Part shown: positions 42,397 to 50,640 of the stretch, piece after piece | Numbering within the stretch: the first letter of the stretch is position 1 | Layout: each line of letters starts with the position of its first letter | DNA from: Erinaceus europaeus | Lineage: Eukaryota > Chordata > Mammalia > Eulipotyphla > Erinaceidae | Reading direction: 5' to 3' | Length of the DNA stretch: 64,000 nucleotides | Assembly (NCBI RefSeq): GCF_950295315.1 | Contig: NC_080164.1 | Location: 110,070,447-110,134,446, forward strand | Translations under genes and position numbers: made by a program | The notes under the pieces: model-generated | What the model was told of the DNA's origin: nothing | The model's input: only the letters and a program-made list of their open reading frames with translations | Databases searched by the model: none

Positions 42397-44745
42397 GGCC
42401 AAGCCTTTCCCGCTACGAGACAAGTTCTCAAGGTCATCACCGCCCAGCTATCATCCATATTGGTCTCCAGCTCCCACTGATTCTGTGCTCGGAGAAACTA
42501 AGATGGAACTTTCGGAAAGCAAACTGGCGTCTGTTCAGTGATCTTACCAACAAATCTATTCCTGCAATTCCAATTAACTCTATCCCCTCTGAAGATTCCT
42601 ACTGGCGCTTCCGCCAAGCCATCTTCAAAGCAGCTTCACAAGCTATTCCTCGTGGGAGACGTGCTAACTATATGCCTTGTCTTGATGCTGAATGCGAGCA
42701 ACTACTATAGCAGTATGATGAGTCGGGCGACCCAGATGTGGCTGACCATCTCATTGCCTCCCTGGATGCAGCACGCCAAGCCTGCTGGCAACAACTCACG
42801 GAAAGTCTGGACTTCACCCACTCAAGTAGGAAGGCCTGGAAGCTTCTTCATAGTCTGGGTGCCGGTAGCCAACCCTCTCCCGTCTCCCATCCTCCCGTAT
42901 CTCCAAACTCAGTGGCCAGTCACCTAACTCAATGGACATGCTAAGATCGACCCAGTCTGGAAAAGAGAAATTTCCCATGAGTGGTCATCCCACTTCTGTT
43001 TATCTTGTCCATCTCCAAAACTCTCTCCCTTTACACTGTCTGAACTGGAAGACGCTTTGAAGAGGGTTAAACCGGGAACGACTGCTGGCTATGATAACAT
43101 CACCCCAGAACTCATTCTTAACTTGGGCCCCACGGCAAAGAAGTGGCTCACTACATTCCTGTCCCACATCTTGGAATCCAAATCTATGCCCCAAATTTGG
43201 CGTCGTGCCATGATAACAGCAGTTTTGAAACCAAAGAAAGACCCAACACTGGCCGCCAGCTATAGATCAATTTCTCTCCTCTCCGTGTGTTACAAACTCC
43301 TTGAGAGGCTGCTTCTGTCACGTATTTCTCCTCTTACAGAGAAATTCCTATCACCCGCCCAAGCTGGTTAACGCCCAGGAAGATCTACCTGCGAACAAGC
43401 CCTGGCCCTCTCAACTTACATTGAAAATGGATTCCAGAAGAATTTAAAGACGGGTGCTGTCTTTGTTGATCTCACAGCAGCCTATGACACGGTCTGGCAC
43501 TGTGGTCTCCTAGTCAAGATCTCAAGATGCCTGCCTCCATGGGTAGCCAACACTATATCGTTTCTTCTCCAAAACAGAAGATTCCGGGTGCATCTGGGTG
43601 ACAAGTCTAGCAGATGGAGACTTGTCTCAAGTGGCCTCCCCCAGGGCTCTGTTCTGGCTCCTATGCTATTTAATATTTACATCAATGACCTTCCAGAAAC
43701 TTCCTCAAGGAAGTTCATCTACGCCGATGACATCTGCTGTGCAACTCAGGCATCCAAGTTCGACATCCTCGAGGAAACACTCACGAAAGACATGTCTCTG
43801 ATATCTGATTACTGTAAAAAATGGCGACTAATCCCTAGCACTGCAAAAGCGGTATCATCTGTTTTCCATCTACACCATGCCTTGGCCTCGCGTGAGCTTA
43901 ATGTGTAGCTTGACGATACGAGAATCCGGCATGAAGCCCAGCCAGTCTATCTTGGCGTTACTCTCGATCGCACTCTGTCATTTCACGAACTTCTCATAAA
44001 AACTGCAGCAAAGGTGGGCATGAGGAATAACATCATTGCAAGACTGGCCAGCTTCTCATGGGGTGCGAGCACTTCCATACTACGATCATCATCTCTGGTA
44101 TTATGCTATTCCACTGCAGAATACTGTGCCCCAGTATGGTTCCGTAGCCCCCATGTTCACTTGGTCGATTCCAAATTATATTCCTCCATGAGGATAATTT
44201 CTGGAACCATCCATTCCACCCCGGTTCCATGGCTGCCAGTTCTTAGCAACATCGCCCCGCCAGATATTCGTCGGGATGCGGCATCATCTAAGTTCATTTC
44301 CCACGTCTACGCTCGACCAGACCTGCCAATATACGGGGATATCTTCGCCCACCCTATTCAACGCTTGACATCTCGTCATCCAATCTGGTCTCCTACGCCT
44401 ACACTGAACTTCTCTGTTCCAGACTCTTGGAAACAGAGTCGGCAGTCAGCTGAGGTAAAGAACAAACACCTCATCACAGACCCCTGCAAGCGTCAATTCA
44501 GCTTTGACCTAGCACGTTATGATTGGGCCCTCCTCAATCGCTATCGAACAGGCCATGGCCGGTGTGCCACTATGTTCCATCGCTGGGGAGCCAGAGACGA
44601 CCCGAACTGCCCCTGCGGCTACAGACAGACTATGACCCACATAGTCAACGACTGCCACCTCTCCAGATTCAAAGGAGGTCTCGAAACTTTACATCAGGCT
44701 CAACCTGACGCTGTTGACTGGCTACGGAAGAAGGGCAAACGCTAG
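42397..44745 (+). pseudogene. Vingi ORF2-like reverse transcriptase, broken
   Basis: Domains in order: an endonuclease C-terminal remnant ('HHRPAIIHIG'); a linker; RT fingers ('AMITAVLKPKKDP', 'YRSISLLSVCYKLLERLL'); motif A ('FVDLTAAYDTVWH', about 43459-43500); motif B ('GLPQGSVLAPMLFNIYIND', about 43630-43690); the catalytic YADD at 43720-43731; thumb; and a C-terminal zinc knuckle C-x-C-x7-H-x4-C at 44608-44655. Lesions: TAG at 42708-42710, a one-base frameshift near 42930, TAA at 43369-43371, and TAG at 43906-43908. The natural stop is 44743-44745. From 43057 on the frame is otherwise continuous, so the copy is only moderately old. It cannot make an active protein. Confidence 0.88.
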
Positions 44746-44758
44746 AAGAAGAAGAAGA
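44746..44758 (+). repeat. (GAA)n tail of Vingi
   Basis: Four GAA units follow the ORF stop with no 3' UTR; the other Vingi copy ends the same way. This replaces a poly(A) tail. Confidence 0.85.
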
Positions 44759-50261: not shown

Positions 50262-50372
50262 TATGAAGTTAGAGAGATAGCTCAGAAGGTAGAGTGCTTG
50301 CCTTACCAGGCAACTGCTCAGGTTAGAGCCCTGGTACCACATGGACTGTTCTATGGCATCAGGGGAAGCAGT
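50262..50372 (+). mobile_element. SINE-4, left half, split by short Vingi copy
   Basis: 'gttagagagatagctcagaag', 'tagagtgcttgcctt', 'ggttagagccctggtaccac'. The right half resumes at 50564. Confidence 0.75.
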
Positions 50373-50442
50373 GGGATGCATTGGATCGACCTTCTCGTGG
50401 TGCATCCCGTGAGTACCCATTTATTGGGGAAACTGAAGATCC
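50373..50442 (+). ncRNA. Candidate HDV-like self-cleaving ribozyme
   Basis: The first 70 nt fit the nested double-pseudoknot layout. P1 is GGGATGC (50373-50379) with GCATCCC (50402-50408). P2 is GGATC (50383-50387) with GATCC (50438-50442). P3 is ACC (50389-50391) with GGT (50399-50401), closing a 7-nt loop TTCTCGT. P4 is CCCA (50416-50419) with TGGG (50425-50428). C50433, followed by TGAA before P2, is in place for the catalytic cytosine. Cleavage would occur 5' of G50373, exactly the insertion boundary. P1.1 is weak (TC at 50393-50394 with GA at 50411-50412). HDV-like ribozymes at the 5' ends of R2, L1Tc/ingi and RTE elements are established. Confidence 0.7.
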
Positions 50443-50563
50443 TTCCTAGCCAACTGAATCCACATGGATCCCAGTCACTTTCAAAGCCAGCAACAAGCAG
50501 ACATCAGGCTTAACCTGACGCTGTTGACTGGCTACGGAAGAAGGGCAAATGCTAGAAGAAGAA
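50373..50563 (+). mobile_element. Vingi-derived non-autonomous element, 191 nt
   Basis: Lies between perfect copies of GGGGAAGCAGT (50362-50372 and 50564-50574). Its last 63 nt (50501-50563) match the end of the long Vingi copy (44691-44757), including the stop region and (GAA)n tail. Its first part (50373-50500) is not in the long copy, which is 5' truncated, and probably represents the Vingi 5' end. This is the structure expected of an internal-deletion derivative mobilised by the parent's proteins. Confidence 0.85.
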
Positions 50564-50640
50564 GGGGAAGCAGTCAAGCAGTCATGCTGTAGTGTCTCTC
50601 TTCCTACCTCTGAGTTAAAAAAGTGAGCTGGAGTGGAGAA
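50564..50640 (+). mobile_element. SINE-4, right half
   Basis: Starts with the target duplication and continues 'cagtcatgctgtagtgtctc', with a short CT body. Confidence 0.7.

Follow-up and report, generated by a model that had tools for sequence, protein, structure and literature searches.

A hedgehog family of non-LTR retrotransposons whose 5′ end is a probable HDV-like self-cleaving ribozyme

The window analysed here is a stretch of 64,000 nucleotides from the hedgehog Erinaceus europaeus (assembly GCF_950295315.1, contig NC_080164.1, positions 110,070,447 to 110,134,446), in which a short retrotransposed element is enclosed by a target-site duplication (Table 1). The left copy of the duplication, AGGGGAAGCAGT, ends at position 50372 and thereby places the start of the element at G50373, in agreement with the original prediction made for this DNA. 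The 3′ end is uncertain by 1–3 nt because the GAA tail of the element merges with the duplication. The same window holds a 5′-truncated copy of the same family that bears reverse transcriptase (RT) sequence, together with two L1-like open reading frames (ORFs) for which Pfam gave no match.

Table 1. Positions of the element, of its predicted ribozyme and of related features in the window, and of the fold in the distant relative L101.
Feature	Position	Strand	Basis or remark
Left target-site duplication	50361–50372	+	Sequence
Short retrotransposed element	50373–50562	+	Sequence, genome copies; 3′ end ± 1–3 nt
Right target-site duplication	about 50563–50574	+	Sequence
Predicted HDV-like ribozyme	50373–50442	+	Rfam match, descriptor; cleavage predicted 5′ of G50373
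P1, 5′ strand GGGATGC	50373–50379	+	Sequence, aligned copies
P2, 5′ strand GGATC	50383–50387	+	Sequence, aligned copies
P3 and loop L3 (ACC-TTCTCGT-GGT)	50389–50401	+	Rfam alignment; L101 comparison
P1, 3′ strand GCATCCC (7 bp with 5′ strand)	50402–50408	+	Sequence, aligned copies
P4 hairpin CCCA-TTTAT-TGGG	50416–50428	+	Folding, aligned copies
Predicted catalytic cytosine C61 (C50433)	50433	+	78/78 aligned copies; kept in L101
P2, 3′ strand GATCC (5 bp with 5′ strand)	50438–50442	+	Sequence, aligned copies
ATG matching start codon of the long form's endonuclease-RT ORF	50464–50466	+	L080 comparison
3′ end common to RT-bearing copy	50501–50562	+	64-nt match, 96.9%
5′-truncated RT-bearing copy of same family, no ribozyme region	about 42397–44758	+	Flanks AGCACATTGA read by eye
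HDV-like fold in L101	L101: 172–245		Shortly before ORF; descriptor, pairing

Copies of the element are dispersed in the genome (2.72 Gb, 1172 contigs), and their flanks are varied. In one longer copy (L080), the 5′ part with the ribozyme runs into an ORF whose ATG stands at nt 92, such that the start codon of the ORF-bearing parent lies 21 nt past the ribozyme. The ORF of L080 contains the endonuclease domains PF14529 and PF03372, and a further copy (L057) contains the RT domain PF00078; as read from these separate copies, therefore, the long form encodes both an endonuclease and an RT. The RT search of the genome yielded 14,471 first-look candidates, of which 150 were scored. Since the short element has the 5′ part of the ORF-bearing form and the 3′ end of the RT-bearing copy, it is an internally deleted form of the long one. 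Other deletion junctions also exist, one common to L032, L033 and L036–L040 and another in L035. At two loci, a short element lies in or near the 3′ end of a long copy of the same family (L008, short element at 1501–1693 and long-copy 3′ end at 1954–2017; L022, 1501–1692 and 3041–3104).

The first 70 nt of the element fold with P1, P2, P3 and P4 in nested pseudoknot order and with a cytosine of the catalytic type in J4/2, both of which the HDV-like class requires. From the 5′ end, with G50373 as nt 1, the order is P1, J1/2 (ATT), P2, a single G, P3, L3, P3′, P1′, GTGAGTA, P4, GAAA, C61, TGAA and P2′. Within this arrangement, 50389–50391 pair with 50399–50401 to form P3 (ACC/GGT) around the 7-nt loop TTCTCGT, and 50416–50419 pair with 50425–50428 to form P4. 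The helices thus have the positions and lengths first proposed for them (P1 of 7 bp, P2 of 5 bp, P3 of 3 bp with a 7-nt loop, P4 of 4 bp), the cytosine is separated from P2′ by the four bases TGAA as had been said, and the spacer between P4 and C61, described in the original prediction as a weak point, is indeed 4 nt long (GAAA). In the portions of PMC3774820 that concern R2 ribozymes, J1/4 and P4 are given as variable. A65 of the window copy is unable to pair with G16, which C65 or U65 could do, lengthening P2; the 15 fetched matches from the ORF side have C65 in 13 cases, and such pairing gives a P2 of 6 bp with 3 nt after the catalytic cytosine. It may be added that J4/2 of the window copy contains a TGA (50434–50436), and that, according to a passage of PMC3414825, 18 of 19 R2 elements have a stop codon there.

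In terms of recognition by search models, a descriptor with an L3 rule (a T.C.CG loop, P3 of 3 bp, P1 of 6–7 bp, P2 of 5–6 bp and a C before P2′) matches once over the two strands of the window, at the 50373 fold; as it was written after the folds at 50373 and in L101 had been seen, this match is not a blind test. A looser descriptor lacking the L3 rule was run on a single strand of each of 30 Markov-resampled windows and returned 99 starts, with no TYCYCG loop among them. Applied to the real window, it yielded several starts unrelated to the element and recovered 50373 solely through a different P2 partner. In a search of 141 bases, the Rfam HDV family (RF00094) aligns with P1 from G50373 at 26.8 bits (E = 0.021), which is far below the family's gathering score of 50, and the whole window searched at the gathering score gave no match. 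The alignment shows L3 and J4/2 of the element to match the HDV consensus. At E values up to 10, 20 of the 40 short-element loci were compared with Rfam, and HDV appeared at the element in 6 of these 20, with 26.8–27.4 bits; most of the other rows at these loci were of microRNA type, lay outside the element and were set aside. The Rfam CPEB3 family had no match in the genome, but the control was silent as well, making this result uninformative. Taken alone, the folding energy is ordinary (z = −0.66, 49 of 200 shuffles folding at least as well), and the minimum-energy fold contains an alternative pairing that uses C61.

The predicted ribozyme stands at the 5′ end of the element, as in ribozyme-bearing non-LTR retrotransposons of the R2 and L1Tc type, and this end is common to a large share of the copies. 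Alignment begins at nt 1 in 35 of 40 short-element matches (412 candidates, 40 of them scored, with the window copy among these). Of the 39 matches besides the query from the ORF side (40 scored of 729), 31 have nt 1 as their exact start, 7 extend upstream of it in the alignment and 1 begins at nt 2. Among the 78 aligned copies, 63 begin at nt 1. All three samples are weighted towards full-length copies. A less biased one was chosen by a pattern at about nt 116–129 rather than by the 5′ end; of the 30 loci listed, 20 were the element, with starts at nt 1 in 9, nt 2 in 2, nt 4–5 in 3 (in one of these, L074, the true start is nt 1 and nt 3 is altered) and nt 25–63 in 6. Full-length copies, for which a start at this GGG had been put forward as a point on which the proposal could fail, mostly do start there.

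A perfect duplication of at least 7 nt is present in 28 of the 40 short copies, and none of 7 nt was found in the other 12. Only 13 of the 28 have a longest duplication that stops immediately before nt 1; in 8 it runs into the element (or the copy is truncated), and in 7 there are 1–6 extra bases. One or two extra bases stand between duplication and nt 1 at L006, L017, L035 and L040, and these may be untemplated, added by the RT on reaching the 5′ end of its RNA template.

With regard to conservation, C61 (C50433) is a cytosine in all 78 aligned copies, as would be expected of the catalytic base that it was proposed to be. The pairs of P1 and of the core of P2 are retained in 69–100% of aligned copies, most of them in more than 97%. 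In P1, no copy with both letters present breaks pair 1, 2, 5 or 6; pair 3 is intact in 66 of 67 copies, pair 4 in 67 of 69 and pair 7 in 69 of 74, the last of these being broken by a change of nt 30 in 5 of 75 copies. In P2, pairs 11–14 are intact in 74 of 75 and pair 15 in 69 of 75. Most aligned copies are young and alike, and unvarying pairs therefore say little. Widely shared changes occur at nt 23 in L3 (20/74), nt 50 in L4 (33/77) and nt 65 (36/77); nt 35 in P1′ is changed from C to T in 17 of 75 copies, leaving a G-U pair, and changes at CpG steps affect nt 16 (6/75), 24 (5/75), 25 (10/75), 37 (9/76) and 66 (6/78).

P1 also shows a double change, by which A4-U33 becomes G4-C33. Genome-wide, 39 copies have C33 and otherwise match a 35-base pattern; G4 is present in 25 of these and A4 in 14. 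The reciprocal single change, G4 with T33, occurs in 2 of 69 aligned copies. All 25 of the G4-C33 copies also have C23. Contig C95 carries 11 of them in the stretch from 42.5 to 53.4 Mb, which looks like multiplication of this form by a local repeat or a duplicated region. From the shared C23 and this clustering, the G4-C33 copies may represent a single compensated lineage that has spread.

Further variation comes from a distant relative, L101, a contig of 3.3 kb assigned to a proteobacterial metagenome-assembled genome (MAG) and presumably a stray eukaryotic element. It encodes a relative of protein P0003 (41% over the best segment, which spans residues 22–990 of 996), and P0003 in turn shares 58% identity with the L057 RT ORF; in a tree, L101 has a long branch and an unsure placement. 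Its fold consists of P1 GGGGTGT/ACACCCT, P2 GTAGAC/GTCTAC, P3 ACC/GGT and L3 TTCACGC, with AAAC TAACA preceding P2′. In comparison with the hedgehog family, L101 keeps P3, most of L3, J4/2 and C61, whereas both strands have changed at two pairs of P1 and at four of P2, and one further P1 pair has gone from G-C to G-U; the P2 register was chosen by the author, and four changes result from either end. Absence of compensatory change in P1 and P2 was the other point on which the original prediction had staked itself, and such change is found both within the genome (G4-C33 in 25 of 39 copies) and in L101, there in two P1 and four P2 pairs. Just upstream of the fold (62–180), L101 has long inverted repeats which share a loop-like stretch, GGTCATTGATGTAA.

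Several controls bear on how much weight L101 can carry. Rfam did not list HDV for L101 positions 1–420, and the case for its fold therefore rests on the descriptor, the pairing and a covariance model, R1, built without P2 from 18 copies of the hedgehog genome only. Outside the hedgehog family, 643,214 strand-bases were searched with the descriptor, which matched at four places, namely L101, L106 and a single TG repeat that was matched on each strand. Markov resamplings of the first 290 nt of L101 gave a descriptor match in 47 of 20,000. Model R1 placed L101 top in 165,907 bases (15.7 bits, E 0.22; the next at 12.5 bits, E 1.2), and gave E 0.0043 on L101 alone. In a model-fitted alignment of 23 sequences, 21 of them distinct, both-side changes occur in two P1 pairs, both through L101; this was equalled in 12 of 500 shuffles, and of six slid controls five had none and one had one. 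L101 is one of six loci in genome contigs examined for relatives (L101–L106), and has the fold before its ORF; L102–L105 had no descriptor match, and the match in L106, at 4453, has no ORF start near it, is far from the RT match of that locus (1170–2561) and was taken as chance. Among viral contigs, 24 stretches with the pattern included no relative. As a control, 13 viral contigs were picked for their P3-L3 core, and in every one of them P1 is unable to form.

Taken as a reading of sequence, the fold, the common 5′ end, the conservation and the covariation indicate that the opening 70 nt of the non-LTR element, long and short forms alike, are very probably an HDV-like self-cleaving ribozyme. 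Points that speak against this are the weak P1.1, the low Rfam score, the unremarkable folding energy, the competing pairing of C61, the loss of P1 pair 7 in some copies, the possible descent of the G4-C33 copies from one lineage, the small share of duplications that stop right before nt 1, and the order in which folds and descriptor came about. By analogy with R2 and L1Tc, the RNA most likely cuts itself before nt 1 and sets its own 5′ end in doing so, which would explain why many copies start at the same base. In such a mechanism, a copy would be transcribed from somewhere upstream, outside the element, and the nascent RNA would fold and cut 5′ of G1 (G50373), with C61 acting as the catalytic base. 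The element RNA would then start exactly at nt 1 whatever lies upstream, freed from any host transcript. The endonuclease-RT protein of the long form would insert this RNA by target-primed reverse transcription, and the short forms, having kept the ribozyme and the 3′ end, would move in trans.

A different fate for the same structure is that the ribozyme was active in an ancestor and is now inactive or slow, nt 1 being merely the transcription start. The weak P1.1 noted in the original prediction, which as read from the sequence consists of one possible C-G pair beside a U-U mismatch, speaks for such decay, as does the failure to reach the gathering score of RF00094. Set against this, the same one-pair P1.1 is found in L101, P1.1 of one or two pairs is spoken of in a passage of PMC4908430, C61 is unchanged in 78 of 78 copies and a compensated P1 form has spread, all of which make decay improbable. 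It is very improbable that the region is a mere hairpin, for instance a promoter, a binding site or an RNA-structure element for the RT, with a coincidental HDV-like order: the P1–P3 hairpin does dominate the predicted fold without any pseudoknot, but the P2 pseudoknot covaries too (four pairs, with L101), L3 and J4/2 agree with the HDV consensus and are retained by L101, and the fold begins exactly at the first base of the element. Least credible is an ordinary SINE transcribed by RNA polymerase III from its own promoter at nt 1, which would account for short, numerous copies with duplications but not for a 5′ part shared with the ORF-bearing form and a 3′ end shared with the RT-bearing copy, HDV moreover being the sole Rfam match in the 141 bases over the 5′ part and the one tRNA-like match, in L001 (1405–1463), lying outside the element.

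A self-cleaving ribozyme as the origin of the 5′ end has precedents among non-LTR elements, as had been pointed out: those of R2 and L1Tc/ingi cleave at or near the element 5′ end, according to the sections of PMC3774820 and PMC4035085 that deal with them. R2 likewise has an HDV-like ribozyme at its 5′ end (PMC3774820, in part), and the short R2 derivatives (SIDEs) of Drosophila are described in a portion of PMC3414825 as the ribozyme joined to the 3′ end. In contrast to the dispersed hedgehog element, R2 targets 28S rDNA, with whose transcript it is carried along, and it belongs to a different clade. In the L1Tc/ingi elements of trypanosomatids, the Pr77 ribozyme occupies the first ~77 nt and is common to long and short forms, as stated in part of PMC4035085, and the TbRIME 5′ end is said in PMC3414825, in a passage on it, to resemble the L1Tc ribozyme; Pr77 doubles as a promoter. 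These elements are the nearest relatives by name if the Vingi label is right. The label comes from the original prediction and from a remark in PMC5753468, where the relevant lines mention Vingi in hedgehogs and reptiles. The mammalian CPEB3 ribozyme is also HDV-like, according to the passages found, but is single-copy, intronic and not mobile; for mammals those passages name only CPEB3 and delta-like agents. Ribozyme-started retrotransposons are thus already known from insects and trypanosomes, and for this family of jumping genes no report was found: an HDV-like ribozyme in Vingi or Erinaceus, which the original prediction also did not know of, is absent from the open literature as searched, and earlier notice is possible.

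If active, the ribozyme would constitute an HDV-like family underlying a retrotransposon that was amplified recently in a mammalian genome of ~2.7 Gb, and would explain both the one exact 5′ end at many insertion places and the persistence of the 190-nt derivatives. Activity would also make testable a shared origin of the ribozymes of this clade and of L1Tc/ingi. The genome itself offers natural variants, a compensated P1 among them, and possibly self-cleaving sites within host transcripts. More tentatively, and with the balance somewhat against it, the ribozyme may be old in a broad endonuclease-RT clade that includes the hedgehog family, L101 and perhaps ingi, so that the genome would hold hundreds or more of young self-cleaving HDV-like ribozymes across its transcription units, with promoterless elements riding host transcripts and cutting the host RNAs in which they lie in sense orientation.

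As a separate observation, many of the proteins P0002–P0052, relatives at ~52–61% identity, come from contigs of ~2–3.5 kb in public read assemblies, each about the length of one whole element.
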